Source: a virus
Virus record (IMG/VR): IMGVR_UViG_3300042554_000772
Span: 1 to 64,000 of that record
Length of the DNA: 64,000 nucleotides
Direction: 5' to 3' (one strand)
In this document: piece by piece, positions 19,801 to 49,278 of the stretch
Numbering within the stretch: the stretch's first letter is position 1
How the letters are laid out: the number at the start of each line of letters is the position of its first letter
The notes under the pieces: generated by a model
Database searches by the model: none
What the model saw: only the letters and a program-made list of their open reading frames with translations
Told to the model about the DNA's origin: nothing
Position numbers and translations under genes: made by a program

Positions 19801-22800
19801 CTGAATTCAACGAAGGGCCAGTAGGTAATACGGTTAGCCTTTACGACCTTGTTGAAAATAAGGGGAGGTTCAAGGAGGATACATCTAAATTCGGTTACAA
19901 TAGATACGAATACGATGACAAGGGTAAGACAAGGACAAAGGAGAACGAGGACGTATTTGATTTCTACCCAGAATTTGCTAATATGAAAGTAACGCTGGGA
20001 CCATCTAATGGTTCTACGTTTTTTAAACATACGAAATCACCTGGGTCAAAAGGGCTTGGTGAAATAACTATGTCAAAAGATTGGTACAACAAGAGTCCAG
20101 ACCACTTTTTCTTTGTTCTTGTTCACGAAATACAGCACGCAGTACAGAGAGAAGAGGGATTTGCTGTTGGTGGTAGTGCATCAACCGTTGACAATGAAAT
20201 CGATGAAGTTATTAAGGCAAACGAAAGAATCCTTAAAAACAAGGACAAGATTGTACCAGCTCTAAAAGAGAACATAAAAGAGCAAAAAAAGCGGATAAAA
20301 TGGTATATCGACCAAGGGTATAGCCAAGAAACAATGATTAAGGATGGCGTATTGACCACTCTTGATGGCTTAGAGACTCAGGTTCGTATGATTGACGATG
20401 TTGAGAAGCAATTAAACCTTTTAAAACAGATAAAAGCGGCTACTAATTTATCCAGCGTAGAGAAGTATAGAATCCTTTCTGGAGAGGTAGAGGCGGATAA
20501 TGCTGCTAGAAGAGCTGCTTTTCAACTTGCTAAGGGGTCTCTTGCTACACAGCCGCTCATAGATACCGAAGAAATCCCTAGAGAGTATCAGCTCATAATC
20601 ACCCCAGATATCGAGGATATGTCTCTACCGTCTTTCTTGACTAAAATGGGATATCCCTCTAAACCCAAGCGTCAAGATATCTTAAGAGTAGCTGCACTGA
20701 AAGACGTGGAGAGTACGGCTAAGGCGTTAGAGGAGAAGTATTCAGCACAACCGATTAAAAGAAATGATATAATTAACAATAATCCACAAGAAATATATGC
20801 TTTATCAATAGGTATAAATCCAAGTAATTTATCCTATTTAGGTAAGGGGGATTTCGGGAAGGCATATAGCACTGACATTGGAACTGTTATAAAAATAACT
20901 TCATCAGCCAATGAGGCAGAAATAGCTTTAAGTTTAATAGGAAAAAAGGGAAACCACGCAGAAATATATGATGTAAAAAAAGTTGAAAACGAGTTTATTA
21001 TACATCAAGAAGAATTAGACACTTATTCAGAAATTGAAGACAATCTACAAACAGTAGAAAATATTCTAAGCGAACAAGAATTGCCAATTCAGTATTTAGA
21101 CTATTTAGACTATGACGAACTAAGTCAAGAGTCCAAAGATGAATATGATAGTTTATCGAATTTCATTTCTGATTTAGAAGACATAAATGGACTTTATAGG
21201 AATTTAGGTATTGAAGCATCTGATTTGCAAAGTGGTAATTTAGGTTACGACAAAAACGGGAAACTAAAAGCATTTGACTTACAAGATAAATCTTCAAAGA
21301 TAAAATCAAAAGATGTTAATGCAGATGCCCTTAAAGATAAAAATCAAGTAATCTCCGAAGCCTACCACGAAGCCAAGAAAGACGGGTCTAATCCTGAATT
21401 AGTCAAAGCGGTTGAGGACTTGTTGGTTGGAGAACAACAGCAACCAAAGCGCCAAGGCATCTCAAAAGCTCAAGGGCCACTAATACCGATAGTCTACAAC
21501 AGCTTGCTGCAGCAATCCACTAGGAACGCAGATGGGACGAATACCCCACCGTACACGCTTCAGGAGTGGCTGACCATGATGACCCCTTACCTGAACGCAC
21601 AGACAGCTACTGCAATCTACAACGGTGTTGCAAGGAACAAGCCACCGTTCACTGCACCAAGCATCCAAGACGCTTACGATAGCTCAAAGAAACGCATGGA
21701 GGCAGGGAAGAACAAGGCTTTCTTCACATGGAACAACCTCAAGAAATACTTCATTGACAGACAGGCAGAGCTCAAGAAGGCGATTCTCGCCTCTGGGATG
21801 AAGAACGCTTACAACTATCTGGTCAACAAGGCTGGGTCTGGGGCTAGAGCTGCCTACTTCTACTACGAGAAGGAGAAGGATATCTACAAAGACCTCAAGA
21901 AGGAACAGATTGAAAAGCTCGACCAGATTATCATGCTCAGGCGTATCATCGAGATTGATAGCAACTTCGATGAGCGTGGCGAAGCCCGCCCAAAGCACAC
22001 CAACGGATTCAATAAGGGGTACGCTGAGATGGAGCTTTCAAGGCTCCAGAGTGAGCTTGGGGACGCTGCTTACAACGACCTCAACAACCGTGCAACCAAG
22101 TACTTTGATGCTTTCCGTTCGCTGTTAGACTCTATGTACGAGGAGGGGCTTGTTAGCGAGGAGCTGTACGAGCAGCTGAGGGATATCGATTACCAACCAC
22201 GATTGTTCCTAGACCACGTTTTCGAGATGGATGAGCCATCCATGCGTGAGATGAACCTAAGCGCTGCACAAATCAAGCGAATCAAGGAAGGTAGCGAGGG
22301 TGACATTATGTTTGACTCAAGGTTCCTCCTAGCTCTTTATGCTAAGAGCGCATTCTCCAAGATTGCACGCAACAAGGCTAACAAGGAGATTGCCAAGGCC
22401 ACCGAGGCACAGGGCAACGAGTCATGGGTATCCAAGACTGATAAGCCAGGCTTCAGCGAGGTTACTTACTTTGAAGATGGTGTCAAGAAGTCTTTCTACT
22501 TAAAGGATAACTTGAAGTCAGAGCTTGACGACATCAGCCGTGTATCAGGGATGCCTCAGAACATACAGAAGCTAATCGGTATGGTTACGGGTTCATTTGC
22601 AGTCAAGCTGTTGGCCACGAGGGCAAACCCATTGTTTGTCGCTAAGAACGTACCAAGGGACTATCTGCACGTTCTCTTCTTCACGAAAGCATACGATAAT
22701 ATGTCCCTACCGCTTGCAGCCATGAGGCTCGCTGGTGACTTCATCAAGGGTGTTAAGAGCAAGCTCCAAGACGACCAAGACTTCAAGGACTTCGTTGAGT

Positions 22801-24383: not shown

Positions 24384-24807
24384 ATTTGCACTCAAGATAT
24401 GTTTAACGGGTTTCTTCTGTTTATTGGCTTCATGTTCGCCAGAATGGCATCTAAAGCGTGCAATAAGAAAGAATCCTATGATAGTGAAGACCGACACCCT
24501 AAAGGTTAGGGATACGTTCTACACGCCAGCGGTATACGTTACAGATACATTCGTTACGAAACAATACGACACCATCGAAATCATCAAGGACAAATTACAA
24601 ATCAAAATCGTAAAATCAAATGATACTATTAGAGTTACTGGGGCTTGCAAATCGGATACAATCGTGCGGACTGTTTCGGTCCCCGTTGAAAGGGTTGTTT
24701 ACAAAGAAGCCAAGAAGAGCAAGCCTTTCGAGTATTTCTCAAGTGCGGTTTGGGGATTCGCAGCAGTATTACTGCTAGTCATTATCTACCGCTCTGAGAG
24801 GCGATAA
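24373..24807 (+). CDS. Candidate u-spanin (lipoprotein with C-terminal TM)
   Basis: 144 residues. The N-terminus has a signal sequence with lipobox LLASC (Cys at about 21) followed by SPEWHLKRAIRKNP, a start often seen in Bacteroidota phage lipoproteins. A Thr/Val-rich beta-type middle (TDTLKVRDTFYTPAVYVTD) leads to a single transmembrane segment near the C-terminus (AVWGFAAVLLLVIIY) and a basic tail. Lipid anchor plus C-terminal TM is the diagnostic layout of unimolecular spanins, which join outer and inner membranes at lysis. ATG at 24373 is chosen because it starts the signal peptide directly; it overlaps the giant gene by 11 bases. The 3' end overlaps the convergent glycosyltransferase gene. 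Confidence 0.65.
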   Translation: MVSKFALKICLTGFFCLLASCSPEWHLKRAIRKNPMIVKTDTLKVRDTFYTPAVYVTDTFVTKQYDTIEIIKDKLQIKIVKSNDTIRVTGACKSDTIVRTVSVPVERVVYKEAKKSKPFEYFSSAVWGFAAVLLLVIIYRSERR

Positions 24808-25528
24808 GGTGCTTGTATCTTTCAAAGATATTTGAAGAGTGAGCTCTGAACTCTGCCAACTCTCTTTCTAGTCCTTCCCGTCCTATTCTGTGGTGGAATC
24901 CGAATCCTCTAAGCCTATCTCTTTCTGGGATTCTTTCTTGTATTTGTAGATTCCTTTTTATCATTTCCTCGTTGTACGGGCTGTTCCTGTACCATAGGAT
25001 TACTAGATTTGAGTTGGAAGGCTTTGAATAGTGTCTACCTAAGTTGTATGCGTACGAGTAACTGCTCATTCTCCTCATGCCTCTCTTAGAGAGAGCTACT
25101 GGGTCGTCTGCGTATATGCCATGCGTGAATTGCTCACACAATAATCTATTCGGGTCTGGGCTTATCCCTTCCATATCTTTTGGGCAAACCATTACTGCAG
25201 AAGGTATATACCGACAACTTAAATCTGAATCATTGCAATTCGCATCTATATCCCCAATTAGGAATTCCGTTACATTAAGCACTACCCTCCACCCAGTAAC
25301 GTCCTTCTCTATGATTGCCACTTCGAAATCCAATTCTTCGGCACCGAAATCTTTATTCTTGCTATCTATAATCTCCCAGTCTGGGCATATCTCTTTTATG
25401 ATTTCTACGCTCCTATCGGTCGAACTGTAGTTAATCATTATTCCTTTGTCAAACATTGGCTTGTGGTGATTAAGCCAAAAGGGAAGAAGGTACTCTTCGT
25501 TGTAGAAGTGACATATTACCGTTTTCAT
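24782..25528 (-). CDS. Family 2-like glycosyltransferase
   Basis: 248 residues. The N-terminus (VICHFYNEEYLLPFWLNHH followed by GIMINYSSTDRS) is the nucleotide-sugar-binding start of the Glyco_tranf_2_4 group. A DXD-like element GDIDANCND is at about 90-98. It is the last gene of a six-gene minus-strand operon and overlaps the methyltransferase upstream by 4 bases (ATGA). Its 3' end overlaps the convergent u-spanin gene by 26 bases. Probable role: adding a sugar to a host surface glycan or a virion protein; substrate unknown. Confidence 0.65.
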   Translation of the reverse strand: MKTVICHFYNEEYLLPFWLNHHKPMFDKGIMINYSSTDRSVEIIKEICPDWEIIDSKNKDFGAEELDFEVAIIEKDVTGWRVVLNVTEFLIGDIDANCNDSDLSCRYIPSAVMVCPKDMEGISPDPNRLLCEQFTHGIYADDPVALSKRGMRRMSSYSYAYNLGRHYSKPSNSNLVILWYRNSPYNEEMIKRNLQIQERIPERDRLRGFGFHHRIGREGLERELAEFRAHSSNIFERYKHLIASQSGR

Positions 25529-26709
25529 ACCGTTTCTATTTGTAATGATGGAAAGTATTTAACCCAGATGTCTCCTTTGCCTTGTCTATGGCTAACCCTG
25601 CTTTTTATCTCATCGTAAAAGTTCCATGCCAGTGGCAATATCACGATAGGCTTATCTATGCCAGTTAAAGCACAAGGGCTATCTATCCTTACGTTTGTGC
25701 CTGGAGTATATAACCCAACCTTCATGTCATTATCGTCAACGATGATGTCAGGAACAATGCCAGCATAATTAAGCAGTGTCATCCCCTTTGCTGCAGCTCC
25801 GTATGCTGCGATTTTAAAGCCCTCATTCCTCTTTGTGTCTATGAATGATTTAAGCTCTGATACGACAACGCTTACGTTTTCAGCGTAATCAATATATGTC
25901 TTCATAGAGGTTAGCCCTTGGCTTATCTCTTCCTCAAGTAAGGCCGTATATTTTTTGGGAGCGTCTTTCCTTTTTGAAAAGGTGAACACATAGCTGATAC
26001 CATGTACTGGTACCTTCTCTACGTCCACTAGTGTTAAGCCTGACCTATTCGCTAGGGCAAGCATTGAGTTCACGTTGAAGAAGGATAGGTGTTCATGGTA
26101 AATTGTATCAAACTGATTGCTCTTGACCATCTCAGCTTGAGATGTTTGGATGAATAACAGTGAATCATCATGCATCCTATATGAAGCATTATTCAAAAAC
26201 TCAAGAGCCTTTTCAGTGTGGGCAAATACATTCTGAGCCACGATAATGTCAAACTGTTTCCAGTATGCAGTATGGTCAAAATACCCACACATGACATTGT
26301 GGTTCTTGCTGCTTATTGGATATAGATTCTCTGCAGGGTCAACGCCATACGTTTCCCATCCAAGCTCTTTAAATGCATCTAGCTGAGTCCCATCATTGCA
26401 AGCGATATCAAGAACGCTTTTTGTGTATGGGGTTACTTTACCAGAGGTCCACTTTGCAAACCATTTAAAGTACTCTTTCAGAGTTGTTGTAGTCCCACTT
26501 ATGTACAAGTAGTTCTTGAACAGCTCGTCAGGATTGACGATATGCGTTAACTGAAGATGGTAGCAGTTCTTGCACAGATTCAACCCTAATGGGTACTCTG
26601 GAAGCTCTTCTCCCTTGTGGTAGCTATTAGCTAGGGGCTGTTTATTGAGGTCTAAGATTTGAACTAAATCGTTTTTACCACAAGCAATGCAATCTGTTTT
26701 ATGGTTCAT
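25525..26709 (-). CDS. SAM-dependent sugar C-methyltransferase
   Basis: 394 residues with the three-part layout of sugar C-methyltransferases (NovU/TylCIII type). First is an N-terminal zinc-binding domain with Cys pairs (CIACGK at 8-13, LCKNCYHLQL at about 51-60). Then comes a Rossmann domain with VLDIACNDGTQLDAF at about 103-117 and YGVDPAE. The C-terminal domain has KIAAYGAAAKGMTLLNYAG at about 300. These enzymes methylate dTDP-ketosugars. It lies in an operon with an epimerase and glycosyltransferases, so the phage may make or modify an unusual deoxysugar. It overlaps the epimerase gene by 11 bases. Confidence 0.8.
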   Translation of the reverse strand: MNHKTDCIACGKNDLVQILDLNKQPLANSYHKGEELPEYPLGLNLCKNCYHLQLTHIVNPDELFKNYLYISGTTTTLKEYFKWFAKWTSGKVTPYTKSVLDIACNDGTQLDAFKELGWETYGVDPAENLYPISSKNHNVMCGYFDHTAYWKQFDIIVAQNVFAHTEKALEFLNNASYRMHDDSLLFIQTSQAEMVKSNQFDTIYHEHLSFFNVNSMLALANRSGLTLVDVEKVPVHGISYVFTFSKRKDAPKKYTALLEEEISQGLTSMKTYIDYAENVSVVVSELKSFIDTKRNEGFKIAAYGAAAKGMTLLNYAGIVPDIIVDDNDMKVGLYTPGTNVRIDSPCALTGIDKPIVILPLAWNFYDEIKSRVSHRQGKGDIWVKYFPSLQIETV

Positions 26710-27598
26710 AAATTACCTTTTTATGTCTATTAACTTTTACCATGTTATCCCAATTATCCAAAAGCGAATTGGTTATAGTTGATACGTCTTCCTTAAACTC
26801 AAACGAGAACTCATTGATGAACTTTTCAGATGATATAGCGAAATCATAAGTAACAGTTTGTTCTTTGGCATTAGTCACTAATGATGGTGTCTCCAATTCG
26901 ATGATGGGAACATTGCATATTTCTGCTACAGCATTAGCGATTTCTTCTGCTGTAGAGTTAAAGCTCGCTAGGTTGTATATGCCACGCTTATCTCTCTTTT
27001 CACTGATAATTGCTGATACGGCATTAACAAGGTCATTGATGCCTAATATAGGCCTGTTTATATCTTTAACGTATAACTTTATATGACCATTCTCTTTAGC
27101 CGAAGAGACCATAGAGTTTATCATGACATCCGTTCTCAGCGTGGGTGAATAGCCACAAACTGTCCCAAAGCGAAGACCATAGTATTCTACCTTAGAATCA
27201 ATAGCCATCATGTCAATGAAATGCTTGGTGATGTCGTAGGTATTGTGAGGTACAAAGTCAGTATAGCTTTCTGTTAATGTGCCACCGCCAACGCATCCAT
27301 ATACACTAGAACTAGATGCATAGATTAGCTTTACACGATTCTCAGCCCTACTCAGCTTATCCAGAAGGATGGCGAAATTATCTACATTGTTCTTAAATGC
27401 TGATAGCTGATTGTTTGCACACGAAGCCACTGAAGAGTTACCAGCAAGCAATATGATTGCGTCATATCTCTCAAAGAACTCTATGGGTAGATTCCTATAA
27501 TCAATACCAATAGATAAGTCAACGGAATGGCATTTGATTTTTTCGGCAATGGCAGAGCCAATGTACCCATGCGAACCTATTAGCAATACATTATTCAT
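26699..27598 (-). CDS. NAD-dependent epimerase/dehydratase (extended SDR)
   Basis: 299 residues from the ATG at 27598, which begins MNNVLLIGSHGYIGSAIAE with the GxxGxxG NAD-binding motif. A longer in-frame extension overlaps the upstream gene and adds non-conserved residues, so I reject it. The catalytic region has SSSSVYG (about 97-103) and YDITK (Tyr-x-x-x-Lys, about 120-124), the standard SDR Tyr/Lys pair. Likely substrate is a nucleotide sugar used by the neighbouring glycosyltransferases. Overlaps its neighbours by 8 and 11 bases. Confidence 0.8.
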   Translation of the reverse strand: MNNVLLIGSHGYIGSAIAEKIKCHSVDLSIGIDYRNLPIEFFERYDAIILLAGNSSVASCANNQLSAFKNNVDNFAILLDKLSRAENRVKLIYASSSSVYGCVGGGTLTESYTDFVPHNTYDITKHFIDMMAIDSKVEYYGLRFGTVCGYSPTLRTDVMINSMVSSAKENGHIKLYVKDINRPILGINDLVNAVSAIISEKRDKRGIYNLASFNSTAEEIANAVAEICNVPIIELETPSLVTNAKEQTVTYDFAISSEKFINEFSFEFKEDVSTITNSLLDNWDNMVKVNRHKKVIYEP

Positions 27599-28109
27599 CG
27601 TTGAGTGGTTTAATGATGTACCAACTGTCTTGCTGTGGGTTTTCCGAAGCCGTGAACTCCTTGCCAATGATAGCAGTGAATTCTTCTAACGCTTTCCTGA
27701 CCCCTTCAAGGCTTCTGTCATGACCACACAAGATGCCACCATTTTTAACCTTTGGCCAATACTTGTTCATATCATGCAAAGCCCATTCGTAAGAGTGGTC
27801 TCCATCTACGTATACGAAATCGTACTTTCCGTCCTCCATATCCTCTAACGCAGAATCGCTGTACTTTTTAAGCAACGTGAATCTATTGGACTCTATGTGT
27901 TCTTTTAGATTCTCATTCGCCAACCTTTCTCTCTCAGACATATATTCAGCGGAAACATATCCCCACCAATCTTTATATCCTTCGAATGGGTCAATGCCTA
28001 TAAGCTTTAAGTTTCCAAGCTCATCTAGCATTCTTTTTGAATTCAATCCTTCTGCTACTCCTATCTCAACACCAAGCAATTCTTTGTCTTTGTCTAAATG
28101 TTCGTACAT
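27591..28109 (-). CDS. Class I SAM-dependent methyltransferase (Methyltransf_24 type)
   Basis: 172 residues. Motif I is LLGVEIGVAEGLNSKRM (about 11-27), then LIGIDPFEGYKDWW, and an acidic YDFVYVDGDHSYEWALHD (about 94-111) that is hallmark for Methyltransf_24 and the cephalosporin-hydroxylase-like group. GGILCGHD follows. Such enzymes often methylate sugars at hydroxyls. It lies third in the glycan operon, 9 bases after the glycosyltransferase-like gene and overlapping the epimerase by 8 bases. Confidence 0.75.
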   Translation of the reverse strand: MYEHLDKDKELLGVEIGVAEGLNSKRMLDELGNLKLIGIDPFEGYKDWWGYVSAEYMSERERLANENLKEHIESNRFTLLKKYSDSALEDMEDGKYDFVYVDGDHSYEWALHDMNKYWPKVKNGGILCGHDRSLEGVRKALEEFTAIIGKEFTASENPQQDSWYIIKPLNDE

Positions 28110-28118
28110 ACTATTGGT

Positions 28119-28841
28119 TTAAAATGTTACGTTTTGGAATAAGTTTAACGCTGGCATCCCCTCAAATATTTCAATCTGTTTGAACGGTACACTACCAAGC
28201 CATCCCTCAGATGAATACTTATCCTCTGTCTTAGGCTCTAACAGCTTTTGTACATGGCTTGATTTAGCCCACCAGAAGTTACCAGCGAAGAAAGAATACC
28301 CATGCGGGTGATGTTCTTTGTACATCTTGAAGTACTCAGGGAACTTAGCCTTGCTGATATAATGGCATCCAGCAGCTTCACTGTCGCTATCCACAAGAGG
28401 CATGATTGCGTGCTGCCATCGAACCGAAGAGAAGAATAGCATAGAACGACACCACAGCTGATTGACGATGCCGCCCCTTGAGCTACCTTTTGTGTGTGCG
28501 TAGTAAACCAGCCCATCGTCCGTCTTTGCAAACTCCCATAGCTTTTTCAAGGTAACGCCTTCATAGCCGCTGTCCTCTTGAGCAGCAACGATAATCTTTG
28601 GATTCCCGTAACTCTGTAGATGTTCAATAACAGCTTGACGTTGCTCTGGCGCACCAACAATGCCTACATATACGTTCTCAAGTACATCCATAAGCCCGTA
28701 GGCATTCAGCGTAACGAAGTGTTGATGAACCGTCAGCAACCAATCGCTGCCAGCGTAGATGTGGTAGAAGTGATTAAGCCTCGGTAGAGTTACCTGTTGG
28801 CTCTGTGGCTGTTCCTGGGTCGGTAATTGAGATTGTTCCAT
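28119..28841 (-). CDS. Glycosyltransferase-like protein
   Basis: 240 residues. The sequence contains VYVGIVGAPEQRQ, GLVYYAHTKGSSRGG and FFAGNFWWAKSSHV, a pattern I associate with capsular-glycan transferase-like proteins lacking a close reference. The first 68 bases overlap the end of the upstream GT4-like gene in another frame. No later start would keep the conserved part, so the overlap seems real. The Gln/Pro-rich first 20 residues are probably non-essential. Substrate unknown. Confidence 0.5.
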   Translation of the reverse strand: MEQSQLPTQEQPQSQQVTLPRLNHFYHIYAGSDWLLTVHQHFVTLNAYGLMDVLENVYVGIVGAPEQRQAVIEHLQSYGNPKIIVAAQEDSGYEGVTLKKLWEFAKTDDGLVYYAHTKGSSRGGIVNQLWCRSMLFFSSVRWQHAIMPLVDSDSEAAGCHYISKAKFPEYFKMYKEHHPHGYSFFAGNFWWAKSSHVQKLLEPKTEDKYSSEGWLGSVPFKQIEIFEGMPALNLFQNVTF

Positions 28842-29955
28842 TGTCTATTAAATTTTGAATTCGATTTTCCATGCCGTTTTCCCTGTAAGCTCTTAGGTAA
28901 AGGTTTGCCTTCTTAGCGAATATCTCAGGGAACTGAAAGTTCTTTAGTACATACTCTTGCAGATTCTTCTGCATACCCTCACGCAAATCCTTGTCAAGTA
29001 TAAGCTGCTTGGTGTAACGATACCACCCAGACTCCTCTGCCTTTGACACGATGAACCCGTTGTAGCCGTGCTTGATGTGCTCCTTGTAGTAATCCATGTC
29101 AGAGCAGATGAGAGCCTTGCCCATCCATCCAGCCTCAACGACCTTCAGCTCAGAACGAGAACGATTGAACTCTGTCTTGTTCACTGGGGCATAGGCTACA
29201 TCGACATCGTTATACCCGTACATATACTCGTAGACGGACCTAGCTGGGATGCGGTTGTAGTGCTTGTTGTTCCCTCTGTTGCTGAATACACGCTCGTAGA
29301 AGTTATAGGAGGGGTTGTCATTGTAACCTCCCAGTGTAACGGTGTACTTACCGTTCAGTGACTTGTCGTTACAAAGCATCTTCATGCTCTTCTCCATCAG
29401 CGCAACGTCTTCAACGTGCTGAGCCCCACCGAACCAACCGAAGCGCACATAGGATGCTGGTCGTTGCACGGGGACGTATTGATGGAACTTGTTGGGGTAA
29501 GGCACGTTCTTGATTACCGTTACCTCTGGGTTGAAGTTGCCAGCTCTGCTAGCCAAGTAATCCGTCGAGCAAGTGATGTAGTCGGCTTGCCTGATGTTCT
29601 CCTCGATGATGCGAGATAGGTTGTTGTCTTTGTAATGCTTGTAGGACACATGGTCCTTGTTAAGCACCCAATAGTCGTCAAGGTCAAGGATAACCCTAGC
29701 ACCAAACTGTTTCAGTGCCTTGGCTGCTTCTTGGACGGACTCCACGGATTTCGTGTCCATAACCCTTGTGATAACAAAGAGGTCTGTCTCTACGATGTTC
29801 GTGTCCCCAATCTTGTCAAATCCAGCAAAATTCCTGAACTCAAACAAGTCGGAGCTATCCTCCATCCAAGCGTTTGGCATATTGAGCCGATAGAACGCAG
29901 CTCCGCTCTCTTCCTGTGTGTAAATCGTGCTAATGACGATTGGTCTTTTATTCAT
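28774..29955 (-). CDS. GT4-like (glycosyl transferases group 1) protein
   Basis: 393 residues, first gene of the glycan operon. The C-terminal half has the GT-B donor-binding signature: VTLGGYND, NRIPARSVYEYMYGYNDVD, SRSELKVVEAGWMGKALICS and HGYNGFIVSKAEE, with the conserved Glu in KVVEAGWMG. The N-terminal half has VILDLDDYWVLNKDH. A TATATTTG promoter lies 14 bases upstream on the minus strand, so the operon starts here. Likely action: transfer of an activated sugar to a host or virion glycan. Confidence 0.75.
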   Translation of the reverse strand: MNKRPIVISTIYTQEESGAAFYRLNMPNAWMEDSSDLFEFRNFAGFDKIGDTNIVETDLFVITRVMDTKSVESVQEAAKALKQFGARVILDLDDYWVLNKDHVSYKHYKDNNLSRIIEENIRQADYITCSTDYLASRAGNFNPEVTVIKNVPYPNKFHQYVPVQRPASYVRFGWFGGAQHVEDVALMEKSMKMLCNDKSLNGKYTVTLGGYNDNPSYNFYERVFSNRGNNKHYNRIPARSVYEYMYGYNDVDVAYAPVNKTEFNRSRSELKVVEAGWMGKALICSDMDYYKEHIKHGYNGFIVSKAEESGWYRYTKQLILDKDLREGMQKNLQEYVLKNFQFPEIFAKKANLYLRAYRENGMENRIQNLIDNGTISITDPGTATEPTGNSTEA

Positions 29956-29984: not shown

Positions 29985-31766
29985 TTACCCGTCACACGAT
30001 AGACAACTAGGGTCAGTAGCCCTTGCAGCGATATCGCCACGCAATACGGACTCCGTTCTCATGTAGTATAGAGTCTTGATTCCTTGGTTCCAAGCCTCCA
30101 TGTGGACTTGGTTAATCCACTTGGGGGATGCCTCCGTAGGGAATGCAAGGTTCAGCGAAACAGATTGGTCCACATAACGCTGACGAATGCTGGCTTGCTT
30201 GATTATCTCCATCTGGTTAATCTCCTTGAAGGTCTTGTAGACATCCTTAATCGACTCAACAAGAGCTGTTGAAGACCTATGTTCATCGATATGCTTGACC
30301 TCACCGTTGACAAAGAGATAGCTGTCAAGGAAATCAAGCCCCTGAACGCTACCGCCATCCTCTAGAATCTTATCCCATACCTCCTTGGTGTTCATGCCAA
30401 TCTTACGCAAGGTCTTCTCAAGCTCTGGGTTCTTTCTGATGAATGTACCCTTTGCGGATTGCTCCGTGAATACATTCGCTGCCCAAGGCTCGATACCAGC
30501 CGACACATTGCCAGAGAGCTTTGAATTGCTAACTGTTGGGGCAACAGCTCGTAGATGGGTGTTCCGCATACCGAAACCTCTGCACCACAACGGCTCCCCG
30601 TAGATGCGAGCCATATCCCTTGAGGCACGCTCGCTCTCAAGCTTGATGTGCGAGAAGATGGAGCGTGTGTGCATCTGCGCTGGGAGTCCTTCGAAGGACA
30701 TACCCTTCTGTTGTAGATAGGTATGCCAGCCGAGGACACCGAGCCCAAGAGCTCGCCCCTTCTCAGCTGAACGCACAGAGTTCTCAAAGCCCCTCATGTT
30801 CTTGGCTTTCTGAATGAACTCCTCAAGCACCCCGTCAAGGAACATTGTAGCGGTGTATACGAGGTCTGTATCCTTCCACTCGTCGTACTTAGCTAGGTTG
30901 AGCGACGATAGGCAGCACACAAAAGAGTGAGACTCATCGGTGTATAAAGCAATCTCTGAGCAGATGTTAGTCATGAAGACCTTGAGACCGTTCTTTTTGT
31001 ACATCTCTGGGTTTGCCTTGTTGACATTCCCACGGAACATGACATAGGGCTCTCCTGTAGCCTTACGCTTCTGCAATACCTTAGCCCAGCGTCTGCGTGA
31101 CTCTTGGTCTCCCTCTTCTAACTTACGCATGAACTTATCAGATATGACCACGCATTGGTGCATATTCAAGCACTGACGGTTCACATCGCCCTTTGGCTCA
31201 CGAATCTCAATCCACTCCCAGAAGTCATCATGCTCGATGTTGAGGTTGACGCTAGCAGCCCCTCGTCTTACATTACCCTGCGATGTTGCAAGGATAGTAG
31301 AATCATAGATTTTACAGAAGGGGACCACTCCATCGGTGGTGCCGTTTGAGTTAGCGATAGGGGAGCCAGCAGGTCGTAGCATATTCATACCGATACCAAC
31401 CCCTCCACCGTGCTTTGCTAGCAGCATCATTTCTAGGTTCTTCATTCCGATGTCTTGGATGCTATCTCCAACATCTACACCGAAGCAAGAGATGGGTAGC
31501 CCTCTATCGGTCCCTGTGTTAGCGAGAACTGGTGTCGCTAAGCACAACCAATTATTCCAGACGTACGAGAACAGCTTGTCCTCGAATGCCTTCGTTTGAT
31601 TCAATCTGTTTGTTACTGCTCTGCATACTCTCTTGTATGCGTCTTTGGGTGTTTCATTGTTAATCAAGTATCCATTCGTAATGGTCTTGACGTACTCCTC
31701 TGTGTTTGCCCAAGCGGGGAAGTCTACACCGACCTCCCAATTAAATTCTTTTCCGTAGTTTCTCAT
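29985..31766 (-). CDS. nrdA: Class I ribonucleotide reductase, large (alpha) subunit
   Basis: 593 residues, shorter than cellular NrdA because the ATP-cone is absent; such reductases escape dATP inhibition at that site. Active-site residues are visible: Cys94 in PISCFG, the N-x-C-x-E triad Asn267/Cys269/Glu271 in NICSEIAL, the second redox Cys in FVCCLSSLN near 283, and the C-terminal CLSC pair (588/591) that accepts electrons from thioredoxin-type donors. It reduces ribonucleoside diphosphates to deoxy forms with NrdB, raising the dNTP supply for phage DNA. It starts on the stop codon of the collagen-like gene that separates it from nrdB. Confidence 0.93.
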   Translation of the reverse strand: MRNYGKEFNWEVGVDFPAWANTEEYVKTITNGYLINNETPKDAYKRVCRAVTNRLNQTKAFEDKLFSYVWNNWLCLATPVLANTGTDRGLPISCFGVDVGDSIQDIGMKNLEMMLLAKHGGGVGIGMNMLRPAGSPIANSNGTTDGVVPFCKIYDSTILATSQGNVRRGAASVNLNIEHDDFWEWIEIREPKGDVNRQCLNMHQCVVISDKFMRKLEEGDQESRRRWAKVLQKRKATGEPYVMFRGNVNKANPEMYKKNGLKVFMTNICSEIALYTDESHSFVCCLSSLNLAKYDEWKDTDLVYTATMFLDGVLEEFIQKAKNMRGFENSVRSAEKGRALGLGVLGWHTYLQQKGMSFEGLPAQMHTRSIFSHIKLESERASRDMARIYGEPLWCRGFGMRNTHLRAVAPTVSNSKLSGNVSAGIEPWAANVFTEQSAKGTFIRKNPELEKTLRKIGMNTKEVWDKILEDGGSVQGLDFLDSYLFVNGEVKHIDEHRSSTALVESIKDVYKTFKEINQMEIIKQASIRQRYVDQSVSLNLAFPTEASPKWINQVHMEAWNQGIKTLYYMRTESVLRGDIAARATDPSCLSCDG

Positions 31767-32806
31767 TATTTAGTTGTCCAAGTTAAACTGCTTGATTCTC
31801 CGACCGTCAACACTTGACCAGCCGTTCCTATACTTAAGTTCTGCCAATCAGAGCCATCCCAATACTTGATATCACCAACACTTTGACCGCTGGAATACCC
31901 AGCACCCGCTGGCCCTGTAGCACCTGTAGCACCCGTCGGACCCTGTTGGCCTTCTGCCCCTTGTGGCCCTTGGGCACCTGTTAGACCTGTTTCTCCTTTA
32001 TCGCCTTTAGGGCCTATTGCTCCTGCTGCACCTGGTGGACCTGTGTCGCCTTGTAGACCTCTGTCGCCTGGTGCCCCTTGTGGACCTTGTGGACCTGTGT
32101 CGCCTTGTAGACCTCTGTCGCCTGGTGCCCCTTGTGGACCTTGTTGGCCTTGTGGACCTGTGTCGCCTTGTAGACCTCTGTCGCCAGGCACGCCTTGTAT
32201 ACCCTGCGGCCCTTGCGCTCCTGTGTCGCCTTGTAAACCTCTGTCGCCAGGCACGCCTTGTATACCCTGCGGCCCTTGCGCTCCTGTGTCGCCTTGTAAA
32301 CCTCTGTCGCCTGGTACCCCCTGTATACCCTGCGGCCCTTGCGCTCCTGTGTCGCCTTGTAAACCTCTGTCGCCTGGTACACCTTGTATACCTTGACTAC
32401 CCTGAGCTCCAGTAGGACCAACATTGCCAACCGATGCCAATAATTGCCAAGCAGTTGACTGTATGTTCGGTGTATCAGTCGTTTGTGCTACAACGCATAT
32501 CCAGCTGCTTCCTCCATAACTGACAATATCGTTTAGAGAATAAACAGTCCCTTGTGGTGTATATGGGCCTTGCCATGTTACACCTGGTCCTTGCGGGCCA
32601 ATAGGCCCTTGAGGCCCTTGAGCTCCTGTTTGCCCCTGTGGACCCTGCTCACCAGCTGGCCCCTTACCACCCCTCCATTTGTTCTCAAGGAAGTCCGTAA
32701 TCAGAGGAAAGCTAACTCCTGTAACTCTATTAATCTGGATGACGCTTGCGTCTGGGTTCTCTGTGAGGTAATCAAAGAGAATTTTGTCTGTGTAGTTGTA
32801 GTTCAT
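31766..32806 (-). CDS. Collagen-like repeat protein
   Basis: 346 residues. N-terminal 48 residues are non-repetitive. A short Gly-X-Y stretch follows, then an insert at about 75-125 with [20 protein letters not shown] and [12 protein letters not shown], which resembles a small carbohydrate-binding module. A long collagen-like region has the recurring unit [13 protein letters not shown] (about 140-265). The end carries [20 protein letters not shown], common at fibre C-termini. Collagen-like triple helices in phages usually form fibres. Its location between nrdB and nrdA, overlapping both neighbours, is odd for a virion gene; horizontal insertion is possible. Confidence 0.8.
32035..32400 (-). 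repeat. Tandem repeats encoding collagen-like Gly-X-Y units
   Basis: In-frame tandem DNA repeats of about 63 bp (21 residues) in the right part and 54 bp (18 residues) in the left part encode [10 protein letters not shown]-containing units. Several adjacent copies are nearly identical, so copy-number change by slippage or recombination is expected, as is assembly uncertainty. Confidence 0.85.
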
Positions 32807-37007: not shown

Positions 37008-37281
37008 CTTGTAATACGATTTTTAATAAAATTAAATAGCCAATTAAATCAGTTACGGTGTCTTCGGTGTGGTCGTTGAGTCCTCGGTTCTTGATGCGGT
37101 TCAACTTATCGTCAATCCTAGCGCAGATAGAATCCCTCGGTGATTTCTTGCTGAACACATTCGCAGGGTTCGTTGCGCTATCCCCGTAAGCAATGTTCTT
37201 CTCGATGAGCAAGGTCTCAATAGCACGGACTTGCTCGATAATCTTTTCGTTAGTACTCTTTTTGGTATCTTCCATTGTCAT
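36868..37281 (-). CDS. Phage protein with all-alpha MazG/DUF1599-like segment
   Basis: 137 residues. The first 90 residues are helical with AYGDSATNPANVFSKK and IDDKLNRIKNRG, then HTEDTVTDLIGYLILL; this pattern is common in phage proteins related to all-alpha NTP pyrophosphatases. The remaining 45 residues are polar and coincide with a 140-base out-of-frame overlap with the primase-helicase gene, so they may be a dispensable tail. Nucleotide-pool control is possible but not proven, since the metal-binding Glu set is not clear. Confidence 0.5.
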   Translation of the reverse strand: MTMEDTKKSTNEKIIEQVRAIETLLIEKNIAYGDSATNPANVFSKKSPRDSICARIDDKLNRIKNRGLNDHTEDTVTDLIGYLILLKIVLQDERDQPTRQEDNGVQDTDGHSEPDCRHAWTSSSTSGEPKKVFFNDY

Positions 37282-37612
37282 ATTTTTGGGTTACTTGATA
37301 AACAAAAGCTTCAATCTCTGAGCCGTCATCCATGATGAGAGGTATCTTCTCTCGCTCGTAGAAGTAAGGGTGGCCCTCAAGGGAATCTAAAATCCTGAGC
37401 CCCACATCATCAACGGAGTAGAGCTCTATTGTGACATTCTCTCCATCCTCGTGCTCTCCTTTGATTAAGTAGGGGAGCCCGTCAACGCATAGCCTCATCT
37501 TCGCCTTGGTTTCGCAATCGCCTAAGAACTCGGCATCAGCGTACTCCATGTAAGGGTGGTTGCCTTTATTGCGCTTTAGAGTGCCATACACTCCAACTAG
37601 GTGTCTATCCAT
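37250..37612 (-). CDS. Gamma-glutamylcyclotransferase-like (AIG2/GGCT) protein
   Basis: 120 residues from ATG at 37612. The N-terminus has VGVYGTLKRNKGNH, the GGCT substrate-binding loop YGTL. SLEGHPYFYER provides the expected catalytic Glu79. GGCT enzymes release 5-oxoproline from gamma-glutamyl amines or peptides. The phage also encodes an amidoligase and a class II glutamine amidotransferase about 9 kb upstream on the same strand, so a linked role in glutamyl-amide chemistry is plausible. I reject a longer start because it overlaps the HTH gene. It overlaps its neighbours by 8 and 32 bases. Confidence 0.8.
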   Translation of the reverse strand: MDRHLVGVYGTLKRNKGNHPYMEYADAEFLGDCETKAKMRLCVDGLPYLIKGEHEDGENVTIELYSVDDVGLRILDSLEGHPYFYEREKIPLIMDDGSEIEAFVYQVTQKYDNGRYQKEY

Positions 37613-37808
37613 TGGACACCTCCATTCGTATTCTTCTAATGAGCCTTGATGCGTTGGATACAAAGACTGATGATGGTCTGCTCTGACCATTGTATACTTT
37701 AATGAATCCTCCTCTCGACATATCTAAATGCTTGGCCATTGTGGATTGCGAAATGCCATATTCATCCACAAGAGACCTTATGATGTAAACGGCTTTCTCA
37801 GGTGTCAT
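37605..37808 (-). CDS. Small helix-turn-helix protein
   Basis: 67 residues. EYGISQSTMAKHLDMSRGGF at about 16-35 is a clear HTH (xre-like spacing, with Ser-x-x-x-Met-Ala-x-His-Leu). The short basic C-terminus (RLIRRIRMEVSNG) may dimerise or contact DNA. It overlaps the genes on both sides by 4 and 8 bases, in the middle of the early operon. A regulatory role is likely; the target is unknown. Confidence 0.65.
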   Translation of the reverse strand: MTPEKAVYIIRSLVDEYGISQSTMAKHLDMSRGGFIKVYNGQSRPSSVFVSNASRLIRRIRMEVSNG

Positions 37809-45474: not shown

Positions 45475-46371
45475 TTAGAAATATGGATAACCTGAACGGA
45501 TAGTTTCTGTTAATTCGGATATTGAGGTTGGTAGTTCGTTGGCTATTGAGGTTGATGTTGGGATTGGTTCTGTAGTCCTCCAACCTCCCACCAACGAAAC
45601 AGAACCCGAAGAAAGCGAGTTTTGGGTTCTTGATGTCCCATCATCATCCCCATCATTCAGTGGGGTGTCATCGTTAAGTGCTTGATGCAAGCACTGCCAA
45701 TACTCCCTGCCCATAGGGGATTCGTCCCACCTGATATGGTCTATAAGCCTCGCAACATTCATATTGGCCTTGAAATGCCTGACAAATTCTTTCGTGCTGT
45801 AGTTGTAATTAAAAAGAATAAAAGCCATCTTGTTGTCATAGCACTTTTTAAACTTAATGGTTTCAGCACGGAGGTTGTCAACGAATGATAGTGGTGTCCG
45901 TCTTAGCATATACTCGTAGGGGGATTCTTCAAACAAGTCCCCCAACCTACGGAGTTCAAAGTTCAAGTAGTCCATAGGGTTCTGCTGTACCTTGGTGTTT
46001 GCACGAAGAAAGGTCAATAGCTGTTCCTCTGTAAGAATAACAGATTCGCTTTGTGGTAAATACTCGTGTCCACTTTCATTGTGGTCTATTACGAAAACAT
46101 ATTTTTGAACAAATTTGGAAAGAAATTCATCCGTGAACCCCATAGTCCTTGATGTTGAAGGGGATAGTAAGTCCTTCATATAGAAGCTAAAGGTTATATG
46201 CTCCCTTCTGCGTGTAGCTACCCAATTAAAAAATTGGTCGGGATTGGGTGGGTCGACAAGTTGTCCAATTCTGTACCTGAACCTCCCCGTAAATTCTTCT
46301 TGGAGAGCCTTGAGAAATGCTACAGCACTCCCCCTTTGGGAGTGCGTGTAGCGGAGAATGATTGTTTTCAT
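45475..46371 (-). CDS. Unknown protein of the amidoligase module
   Basis: 298 residues, not recognised. N-terminal part MKTIILRYTHSQRGSAVAFL and RIGQLVDPPNPDQFFNWVAT, a central helical region, and a Ser/Thr/Asp-rich low-complexity tail from about 235 (DDTPLNDGDDDGTSRTQNS). It lies 12 bases after the class II amidotransferase gene, so it is probably co-expressed with it. It might be a substrate or a specificity factor of the amide-forming enzymes; this is inference from position only. Confidence 0.5.
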   Translation of the reverse strand: MKTIILRYTHSQRGSAVAFLKALQEEFTGRFRYRIGQLVDPPNPDQFFNWVATRRREHITFSFYMKDLLSPSTSRTMGFTDEFLSKFVQKYVFVIDHNESGHEYLPQSESVILTEEQLLTFLRANTKVQQNPMDYLNFELRRLGDLFEESPYEYMLRRTPLSFVDNLRAETIKFKKCYDNKMAFILFNYNYSTKEFVRHFKANMNVARLIDHIRWDESPMGREYWQCLHQALNDDTPLNDGDDDGTSRTQNSLSSGSVSLVGGWRTTEPIPTSTSIANELPTSISELTETIRSGYPYF

Positions 46372-46383
46372 AGAGCGTTAATT

Positions 46384-47193
46384 TTAGTAGGTGTAAGCAT
46401 CGTTTAGTTCGTCTGTCAAAATGGCACTGCGTAGAGCCTTCATATGATTCTTCTCAAAGGCTTTGACCTCCTTGAGGTGCTTGTCCCGTGCCTCAAGAGT
46501 CCCCCCAATAAGAGGGACTGAGGAGCGGTTGTATCCGTTGTAGCTGTTAGTGGATGGCTCAACAGCATAGCCCTTTTTGTAGTCCCATAGAGGCGTTTGA
46601 ACGCCACCCTTCTGCACCTTCGTGTTGCCGTGGTATACATAGTCAAGCGAACGCTTGTAGCTATCGTTTGAATACCAAGTGTCTTGGTTCTTGTCCCAAT
46701 GCCCAAGTTGTGAGTTAAGTATCCTGAAAGCCCCACGATAGTCCATAAGAACCACCTTGTTGGTGCGACCAAGCAAGTGCATTGCAAAGCCGTTGACTCC
46801 TTTGTGGTCAATGAACGATACATTCTTGGGGCTGAAGTTGCCCAACAGCTCCGCAAATTCCCGTGTGTCGCTGATAATGGTGTCCCCAAGGCCGTAGATA
46901 ATGCCGTTGTGAATGAGTGATACCTTGCCCTCTGCAACAGAGTGTGGGTGGAGCATATCCGTACCCTTGCCGTGGGTTGCAATACGGAAATGGAGCATCA
47001 AGGGGTGTTCGGTGTTGTTACGAATGAACTGATACTCCTCATAAAAGGACTCAAAAGAAGTCCCTTCGTGGTAGGAGCGAATGGAGTTGCCGTCCACATA
47101 GCCGATACCTGCTCCGTGGTAGTTGTTGTCCCAACAATTTTGGAGGGACTTTTTGGAAAGTTTTGCTGATTTGTTAAGAATTGCGATACACAT
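46384..47193 (-). CDS. Class II glutamine amidotransferase (Ntn-hydrolase)
   Basis: 269 residues. It begins MCIAI, giving the N-terminal nucleophile Cys2 after Met removal. NYHGAGIGYVDG (24-35), LHFRIATHGKG (67-77) and LIHNGII (93-99) are the glutamine-binding and oxyanion motifs of GATase-II enzymes. These split glutamine (or act on related amides) to supply ammonia, or act as amidases. The adjacent GS-like amidoligase is the obvious partner. The 5' leader holds six TTGAA repeats and follows a G7/C7 hairpin. The C-terminal 70 residues are variable and Lys-rich. Confidence 0.85.
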   Translation of the reverse strand: MCIAILNKSAKLSKKSLQNCWDNNYHGAGIGYVDGNSIRSYHEGTSFESFYEEYQFIRNNTEHPLMLHFRIATHGKGTDMLHPHSVAEGKVSLIHNGIIYGLGDTIISDTREFAELLGNFSPKNVSFIDHKGVNGFAMHLLGRTNKVVLMDYRGAFRILNSQLGHWDKNQDTWYSNDSYKRSLDYVYHGNTKVQKGGVQTPLWDYKKGYAVEPSTNSYNGYNRSSVPLIGGTLEARDKHLKEVKAFEKNHMKALRSAILTDELNDAYTY

Positions 47194-47213
47194 TTTGAGT
47201 TGAATTTAAAGGG

Positions 47214-47243
47214 TTGAATTGAATTGAATTGAATTGAATTGAA
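47214..47243 (-). repeat. (TTGAA)6 microsatellite in the amidotransferase leader
   Basis: Six perfect tandem TTGAA units lie 21 bases upstream of the amidotransferase start, between the shared leader motif and the G7/C7 hairpin. Changes in copy number would alter leader length without affecting the coding frame. Confidence 0.8.
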
Positions 47244-47257
47244 AGACTGATGATAGT

Positions 47258-47280
47258 GGGGGGGCTATAACCACCCCCCC
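47258..47280 (-). terminator. G7/C7 hairpin between amidoligase and amidotransferase
   Basis: Seven G at 47258-47264 can pair with seven C at 47274-47280 around a 9-base loop. It starts 8 bases after the amidoligase stop. There is no U-run on the minus strand, so it may be an attenuator or a 3'-end stabiliser rather than a classical terminator. Confidence 0.5.
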
Positions 47281-47288
47281 TTATCAAG

Positions 47289-48740
47289 TTACTTGGTCAA
47301 CTTGCGGTTAACCACTGAGGTGCTGAACTTGGATGTAACAGCATCCCGAACCGATGATTGAACACTTGACCAAGCCAAGCGCATCCGCTCAAGGAGGCGG
47401 TCTTGTTCGCCCTCGGTCTTGAATGCGATAGCGTTATCATCCTCAAGCAATGAACCGAACAGATAGGTAAGGCTCTGCTTTCTGCGAAGTTTCTCGTCCG
47501 TGCAATAGTGGTTCATAATCTTCTTGAGTTTAGTGTCCTCAAACATTGCCTCGGCCACCTCGCTGTAGTGGGTGAACTTGTTAGCATCAATGGACTTGGC
47601 TATGAACCGCATAAGGCGAAGCCTCCAAGTAATGGATTCAAGGCTGTCCACTGCGGAGGGGATTCTTATTTCTACGCTGTTGTTGTCCTTGAGGTAGATA
47701 GCCCTGCGACTCTGCCCCTCAATTTCCTCCTTGCTCTGCACTCCGCTAAAGCGACCTGCTAAGCGACCCTCGTAGATAGCGAACAGCATAGGGATGAAAG
47801 GGAACAGCTTGTCCAAAAGCACCTCACCCCTCATACCCCTACGGGATATGGTGATATGCCCACCACAAGCCTTGGACTTGGAGGCATCCATAATCCAACG
47901 AAGTTCCTCAAAATGAGCTAACTGCGTTTCCTTGTCCATAAGGTCATAGACGGGGCTGACAAATTCCACCCCCGTGGTAGAGTCAAGCGACCCGTCCCGT
48001 TCACTGCGCCATCCGTGTGGGAGGCGGTTGTTCAACCTACGGGCTGTGTTGCGAGCTGTTTCGTCCTCCTTCTCAACCTCCCAACCTACCCTCCAATTAA
48101 CGGAGGGGTTGTTCAAAACAGCCTCGCTGAATGGCTTGGTGTATTGCGCTAAGGAGCTATCGTGGTAGTTACCGAGGTCAGGGAGTGGGCCGTGGACGGA
48201 GGCCGTTTCTTCATCCTCGTACCATACCCCTCTACGCTTGACCCAAGTACCCGTGTGCGTGGGGTGGGTCTGCATAAAGTCCGAATTGTCAAAGGTGCGG
48301 AACGCTACCTCCGTGCCGTCCCGAAGAATGCGCTTTGTAGTATGGGTGCTTCTCCCAAGATTTCTCTCAATGAATCCCTCAATGCGCACCCAAGACCCGT
48401 TCTCCAAGGCCCAAATAAATTGACTTTCGGGGGTAGTGGGGGTAACGGGGACAAGACTCCTTCGGGTAATTAGTAGCACCCCACAAGCCCCAATACCTGC
48501 ATCGTGGGAGTAATCAAAGCCCTCATCGTAGTAGCGTTGAAGTCCAAGCTCTGCAACCTTGGTGGGACTCAAGTCCTTTGGGATTCGTGCGTAGCTACTG
48601 CGGTATTCCCCATCCTGACAAAGCTCCGAAGTACGGATGATTCTGTGGGGGGTGGAGGGACTTATTTGGTATTCCCCAAGTTCGGGGAGGCGGTAAGTCC
48701 AAGCGTTTGTGAGGGTGCGGTTTGTGAAGATTGATTTCAT
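47289..48740 (-). CDS. Glutamine-synthetase-like amidoligase (Amidoligase_2)
   Basis: 483 residues. The catalytic domain occupies about 215-400 and shows the family landmarks: GWEVEKED (219-226; metal-binding Glu residues), SERDGSLDS (246-254), GVEFVSP (257-263), CGGHITIS (292-299), YEGRLAGRF, then RRAIYL and VEIRIPSAV (about 345-364), with the nucleotide-binding Arg set. These enzymes use ATP to join a carboxylate to an amine. The N-terminal 210 residues have no family match that I can see and may choose the substrate. The C-terminal 80 residues are helical. The partner amidotransferase gene follows downstream. Confidence 0.85.
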   Translation of the reverse strand: MKSIFTNRTLTNAWTYRLPELGEYQISPSTPHRIIRTSELCQDGEYRSSYARIPKDLSPTKVAELGLQRYYDEGFDYSHDAGIGACGVLLITRRSLVPVTPTTPESQFIWALENGSWVRIEGFIERNLGRSTHTTKRILRDGTEVAFRTFDNSDFMQTHPTHTGTWVKRRGVWYEDEETASVHGPLPDLGNYHDSSLAQYTKPFSEAVLNNPSVNWRVGWEVEKEDETARNTARRLNNRLPHGWRSERDGSLDSTTGVEFVSPVYDLMDKETQLAHFEELRWIMDASKSKACGGHITISRRGMRGEVLLDKLFPFIPMLFAIYEGRLAGRFSGVQSKEEIEGQSRRAIYLKDNNSVEIRIPSAVDSLESITWRLRLMRFIAKSIDANKFTHYSEVAEAMFEDTKLKKIMNHYCTDEKLRRKQSLTYLFGSLLEDDNAIAFKTEGEQDRLLERMRLAWSSVQSSVRDAVTSKFSTSVVNRKLTK

Positions 48741-48802
48741 CTGTTTTGAATTTAAAGGGTTAATTGATAAGGGTTTGGTTTGGTTTGTTTAGTGTTAATT
48801 AG

Positions 48803-49078: not shown

Positions 49079-49120
49079 TTGTTTTGAATTTAAAGGGTTA
49101 AAGTTTAAAGGGTTGAATGT

Positions 49121-49194: not shown

Positions 49195-49278
49195 GCGAAG
49201 CCCAATCGCTCCGCATAGCTGTAGTTTTCAGCCACTTACAAAGCCTTTAGCGAAGCCCTTTCGCTCCGCATAGCTGTA
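49195..49278. repeat. Two 29-bp direct repeats, 55 bp apart
   Basis: Copies at 49195-49223 and 49250-49278 differ at two adjacent bases (AA versus TT) out of 29. Each ends in CGCTCCGCATAGCTGTA and contains an internal GCGAA...TTCGC-type pairing potential, so each could fold as a small hairpin or serve as a protein-binding site. Confidence 0.75.

Follow-up and report, generated by a model that had tools for sequence, protein, structure and literature searches.

Phage cassettes that combine an amidoligase with a class II glutamine amidotransferase (GATase) are known from phiEco32, LUZ24, tf, RIO-1, Marvin and the OM43 phages, and the cassette analysed here is not new. An account of the phiEco32-type system was published by Iyer and colleagues in 2009, as cited in PMC10580990; a seven-gene version has been discussed as a peptidoglycan-modification cassette (PMC5498523), LUZ24-like phages list all of the cassette parts (PMC3890496), and OM43 phages carry the amidoligase and the GATase (PMC10580990). 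Modification of peptidoglycan against superinfection is the role proposed, since 2009, in the literature (PMC10580990, PMC5498523), and we saw no biochemical assay of the phage enzymes in the literature consulted for this comparison. A preliminary description had presented the locus as a candidate phage amide-bond modification system, a kind already published for the phiEco32, LUZ24 and RIO-1 cassettes (PMC5498523, PMC3890496, PMC10580990); the comparative-genomic link that it named between the amidoligase, GATase-II and AIG2-type families is indeed established.

The present locus has the phiEco32/LUZ24-type core, in which an amidoligase is followed by a class II GATase and a gamma-glutamyl cyclotransferase (GGCT) lies in the early region. 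As a whole, it is probably a minimal cassette with which the phage carries out amide chemistry of the gamma-glutamyl type.

The locus and its genomic setting

The window, the whole stretch of 64,000 bases that was analysed, corresponds to positions 1-64,000 of viral record IMGVR_UViG_3300042554_000772 (64,759 bases). Late genes, encoding large structural proteins, tail proteins and the terminase large subunit, occupy the plus strand at both window ends and include an ORF of 3498 aa (13887-24383), while the remaining genes, replication genes among them, run on the minus strand from ∼49.2 kb down to 25 kb. A search of the window for tRNA genes found none. The primase/helicase carries a BT4734-like N-terminal domain, which suggests a Bacteroidota host. 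The minus strand also holds ribonucleotide reductase genes, two subunit genes of which flank a collagen-repeat tail fibre gene containing long tandem repeats (31766-32806), and a run of sugar genes (24782-29955) comprising two glycosyltransferase-like genes, a C-methyltransferase (Methyltransf_13/14), an NAD-dependent epimerase and another methyltransferase. C-methyltransferases of this type occur in deoxysugar synthesis, and the run is possibly a glycan modification set for the virion or the host.

As had been described, the amidoligase, the GATase and a 298-aa protein are encoded by three consecutive minus-strand ORFs (Table 1), and the motifs reported for them (GWEVEKED, CGGHITIS, VEIRIP and MCIAI) are all present in the translations. 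The GGCT gene, nested in an ORF spanning 37250-37690, sits ∼9 kb from the ligase-GATase pair and just upstream of the primase/helicase, from which a single small gene separates it (37612-35190).

Table 1. Features of the cassette and its surroundings in the window.
Feature	Coordinates	Strand	Basis
Gamma-glutamyl cyclotransferase (GGACT/AIG2-like), 120 aa	37250-37612	-	Pfam GGACT 1.3e-17, motifs
298-aa protein, C-terminal FW motif IRWDESPMGREYW	45475-46371	-	weak homologue in nearest relative
Class II (Ntn) glutamine amidotransferase domain protein, 269 aa, Cys2 nucleophile	46384-47193	-	invariant residues, GATase_6
AACCCTTTAAATTCAA leader before GATase	47200-47215	-	exact copy
GS-fold amidoligase, 483 aa	47289-48740	-	invariant residues, model, fold matches; core ~residues 210-483, N-terminal ~165 residues unassigned
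AACCCTTTAAATTCAA leader before amidoligase	48746-48761	-	exact copy
AACCCTTTAAATTCAA leader before upstream 91-aa ORF (start 49077)	49084-49099	-	exact copy

The leader sequence AACCCTTTAAATTCAA gives 7 matches at up to 3 mismatches, against 1.1 expected, and three of these are exact copies. The spacer between amidoligase and GATase contains a perfect six-copy tandem repeat of 5 bases (TTGAA/ATTCA, (ATTCA)6, 47214-47243) that could vary in length. The shared leader and the repeat fit joint control of ligase and GATase but prove nothing. Upstream of the amidoligase region, GCTATGCGGAGCGAWWGGGCTTCGC occurs in two near-identical copies 55 bases apart (49195-49219 and 49250-49274).

The set belongs to the early/replication transcription unit and hence probably acts during infection. 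Some DNA-modification pathways include amidotransferases, and the proximity of the cassette to replication genes could be read in terms of DNA base hypermodification, with the enzymes building an amide on a modified phage DNA base. We regard this as highly improbable: no genes for modified-base synthesis, kinases or transglycosylases were seen among the scanned window ORFs, and relatives of the cassette are spread over many unrelated phages.

Identity of the amidoligase, amidotransferase and cyclotransferase

The enzyme identities of the three proteins are almost certain. For the amidoligase, the Glu and Arg residues whose loss had been named as grounds for rejecting the assignment (E221, E223, E259, R326, E357 and R359) are invariant, together with G219, D249, G293 and H295, in a 70-row alignment of sequences 14-51% identical to the window protein. 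The corresponding ExE, DxS..GxE, CGxH and ExR motifs form a residue set of the type expected for glutamine-synthetase-like amidoligases. In the AlphaFold2 model, residues 210-483 have pLDDT values mostly >90 and residues 1-163 are nearly all <50. Its fold matches are glutamine synthetases (GS), the gamma-glutamyl-methylamide synthetase GmaS, YbdK and gamma-glutamylcysteine synthetase, with Z-scores of 8-10 over residues 210-460 (best GS 10.2, YbdK 9.5); GmaS is among the best Foldseek matches, and many amidoligase-annotated models in a viral structure library also match (E from 8e-13). Whole-model TM-scores are low, in part because the N-terminal part is poorly modelled. The protein thus combines a GS fold with the ExE, E, H, R and ExR residues of the GS-like amidoligase superfamily.

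The profile search suggested in the preliminary description gives a divided answer. The window sequence has no match to Pfam Amidoligase_2 (PF12224) even at E<1, so the test fails for the ligase taken as a single sequence; 20 of its 70 aligned relatives, however, match at E≤0.01 (best 2.2e-9), and the assignment rests on these relatives and on the fold. Searches of PHROGs, PADLOC and, directly, Pfam with the amidoligase returned nothing useful, and neither a PDB sequence search with its profile nor a genome scan gave any match. Among phage records, tblastn found one distant homologue (28% identity), in Manatee Spring phage ctfjg026, where the following gene is also a GATase; with this pair as seed, viral contig scans yielded about 160 loci. 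The resulting profile A6 recovers the amidoligases of phiEco32 (E 4e-7), tf (7e-5) and LUZ24 (4e-4), and those of tf and LUZ24 exceed the Pfam cut-off. An hhalign comparison of the three-row window clade with the LUZ24 group, based on shallow alignments, reached a probability of only 10% (E 0.003), although the motifs align.

Selection at the codon level is consistent with a functional gene. Of the codon differences that separate the amidoligase from a 98%-identical copy in contig 3300044627_002215, 43 are synonymous and 8 are non-synonymous (pN/pS ∼0.05); the gene is under purifying selection and is kept as a working protein. These codon changes, the 70 aligned amidoligases and the 22 aligned GATases argue that the observed genes are not a product of chance.

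The N-terminal regions of the amidoligases vary among relatives. A zinc ribbon at this end was considered as a general feature and rejected, as two CxxC motifs are present in only 5 of the 147 ORFs for amidoligases. In several relatives (L013, L014, L016, L027, L035, L037 and others) two amidoligase genes surround one GATase, an arrangement counted in 12 loci, of which a few may represent split ORFs.

Protein modifiers of the PafA and Dop type are GS-fold ligases. The phage ligase might attach glutamate or an amine to proteins of the host or the virion, such as those of the transcription or translation machinery, and so aid takeover. Dop appears in the list of fold matches, and the variable N-terminal regions could recruit different targets. 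The Dop match is weak, however (E 0.04), and the amidoligase has no conserved neighbour that would serve as a dedicated small tag or as a peptidase; we consider protein modification unlikely.

For the GATase, C2, R70, T73, G75, N96, G97 and D109 are invariant in a 22-sequence alignment, so that the Cys after the initiator Met, RxxTxG, the Asn-Gly pair and the Asp of class II GATases are all intact. This set fits the nucleophile and glutamine pocket of the family. The profile evidence is again mixed: the GATase relatives contain GATase_4/6 matches, but the window protein matches Pfam GATase_6 weakly and below the cut-off (E 0.0013). A PDB sequence search with the GATase found no matches. At least two CxxC motifs occur in a C-terminal tail in 104 of 150 GATase ORFs, and the window GATase does not carry this tail. 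The cyclotransferase gives the strongest Pfam match of the cassette (GGACT, 64.9 bits against a cut-off of 22.8) and has both the YGTL loop (GVYGTLKRN) and the catalytic Glu motif (LEGHPYFYER) of gamma-glutamyl cyclotransferases, which bears out its earlier assignment.

Conservation of the gene neighbourhood

A conserved neighbourhood in related phages had been predicted, and the ligase-GATase pair is tightly conserved. After loci with identical GATase sequence had been dropped, a GATase accompanied the ligase in 61 of the 73 loci that the amidoligase had identified, and in the other 12 the contig ends within ∼1.8 kb of the ligase; conversely, 67 of 68 loci found by the GATase have the amidoligase, the single exception lying 172 bases from a contig end. 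The loci are mutually related and these counts are not independent, with identities spanning down to about 14%. A genome scan with the GATase returned only three bacterial loci, all of which also have the amidoligase.

The GATase and GGCT form one polypeptide in 46 of 126 loci. In a tree of amidoligases (65-row subsample) the fusion loci form one clade (support 96/86, one change), and the fusion appears to have a single origin; the window falls in a separate, well-supported branch with L009 and L010. The occurrence of both enzymes as one polypeptide in one clade therefore ties GGCT to the system. We found no published description of this fusion, and we do not claim it as new because the 2009 paper of Iyer and colleagues lies outside the literature compared. 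GGCT is also found in 8 of 21 records with an amidoligase and an unfused GATase; of 37 background phage records that lack an amidoligase, 1 has it. It does not seem to be strictly required, as it lies ∼9 kb away in the window and was not found in 13 of the 21 non-fused relatives, some of which are fragments. The fusion and the co-occurrence strongly support a common pathway, and we consider it likely that amidoligase, GATase and GGCT act together in this way.

The tightness of the pairing also bears on a metabolic role, in which the genes would be auxiliary metabolic genes that recycle host nitrogen and gamma-glutamyl compounds, such as glutathione-like peptides, for phage synthesis. The yeast class II GATase Dug3 takes part in glutathione degradation, and the ribonucleotide reductase genes of the window would also suit such a role. 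It has been argued for Phage-ZRK32, which carries an amidoligase, a GATase, a glutathione synthase and a GGCT and is reported to boost growth on nitrate and ammonium; however, the text consulted does not tie the growth effect to the cassette genes by deletion (PMC10945688). Salvage would need a looser ligase-GATase pairing than is seen, and the scanned window ORFs include no further genes for glutathione or nitrogen metabolism. A metabolic role is unlikely.

The 298-aa protein, whose ORF starts 12 bases after the GATase stop, had been included as a possible third partner, and this part of the proposal is not supported. The protein has no matches in Pfam, PHROGs or phage records, PADLOC gave nothing useful, and a single-sequence structure model, at a pLDDT of 37, is uninformative. 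Its one faint homologue is a 216-aa ORF at the equivalent place in the nearest relative (L009), which aligns to the C-terminal part (BLASTP 6e-5, a single comparison) and has in common with it the motif F/I-x-W-x2-T/S-x-EG-x2-F/Y-W, located at about 45655-45735 in the window.

This FW motif was considered as a system-specific partner or tag and rejected. In an unbiased scan with the strict motif, 51 viral stretches match and only two fetched loci have an amidoligase, one of which (L213) shares a contig with L117, already found via the amidoligase; the motif is thus general among small phage proteins. The form FxWxxTxEGHxFW occurs in diverse, unrelated small proteins of phages (L117, L144, L155, L041, L172, L168-L218), and in L041 and L172 the motif lies inside the N-terminus of the amidoligase. 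The 298-aa protein is a fast-evolving neighbour and a candidate member at most.

Proposed chemistry and comparison with known cassettes

The phage cassette most likely both makes and breaks glutamate-type amide bonds during infection. Gamma-glutamyl amide chemistry in particular is probable, given the kinship of the ligase fold with GS and GmaS and the presence of a cyclotransferase. From the fold and catalytic residues, the amidoligase would use ATP for phosphorylation of a carboxylate, which is most likely the gamma-carboxylate of a glutamyl group, and would join it to an amine; the preference for the gamma-carboxylate is suggested by fold kinship only. The class II GATase may then hydrolyse glutamine and hand the ammonia to the ligase, forming a split glutamine-dependent amide synthetase, or alternatively may trim the gamma-glutamyl amide. 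The cyclotransferase could free gamma-glutamyl groups as 5-oxoproline, thereby undoing or editing the products. As has been proposed for phiEco32, the most plausible targets would be peptide precursors of the host cell wall or else a different host peptide. The cell wall itself, a proposal taken from the literature, can be named only tentatively, and no gene pointing to peptidoglycan synthesis was seen among the scanned window ORFs. A further scheme is a minimal machine of two to three enzymes: the ligase would place a mark, a gamma-glutamyl amide, on some host molecule, the GATase and cyclotransferase would erase or edit it, and the variable ligase N-termini would choose the target. It seems quite unlikely.

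Our results describe a very widespread phage enzyme set in which the ligase and GATase are close to inseparable and one large clade has GATase and GGCT as a fusion. The minimal system therefore consists of two or three proteins that can be co-expressed and assayed, which makes a prediction open since 2009 directly testable.

The nearest relative found with both genes is IMGVR_UViG_3300014720_000203 (L009/L090), in which the amidoligase is 51% and the GATase 69% identical over their lengths and the gene order, with an FW-motif gene downstream, is the same; however, two tandem downstream genes (216 and 302 aa) replace the single 298-aa gene. Caudoviricetes phage ctfjg026 (MW202828.1) shares the order amidoligase, GATase, small genes, dnaA, hypothetical gene and exonuclease, and a VirE-annotated gene likewise lies downstream. 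In this phage and its relatives the GATase is joined to GGCT in a fusion that has a Cys-containing tail at its C-terminus, whereas in the window GGCT is separate and 9 kb downstream. The OM43 phages MEP401 and MEP402 also have amidoligase and GATase with no ATP-grasp or COOH-NH2 ligase annotated nearby, but belong to another phage family, and their amidoligase is only about 21% identical to that of the window.

The phiEco32-, LUZ24/tf- and RIO-1-like podoviruses differ in also carrying an ATP-grasp ligase and a COOH-NH2 ligase. No ATP-grasp protein was found in the window with a profile from the LUZ24 and StenR_269 proteins, which identified 12 ORFs in other loci. The COOH-NH2 ligase (PF14395) was found neither in the window record nor in 39 other records and was detected in LUZ24, tf and phiEco32 as positive controls. 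The second amidoligase of some related phages may possibly stand in for the second ligase of LUZ24-type cassettes. Compared with these podoviruses, the window amidoligase is far diverged and has a longer N-terminus. The likenesses are that an Amidoligase_2 protein directly precedes the class II GATase in these phages and that, in LUZ24 and tf, only one small gene separates GGCT from the primase/helicase that follows it, the LUZ24 genes of the shared arrangement being gp18, gp19, gp22 and gp24. Without the ATP-grasp and COOH-NH2 ligases, the window cassette is a distant, reduced member of this group.
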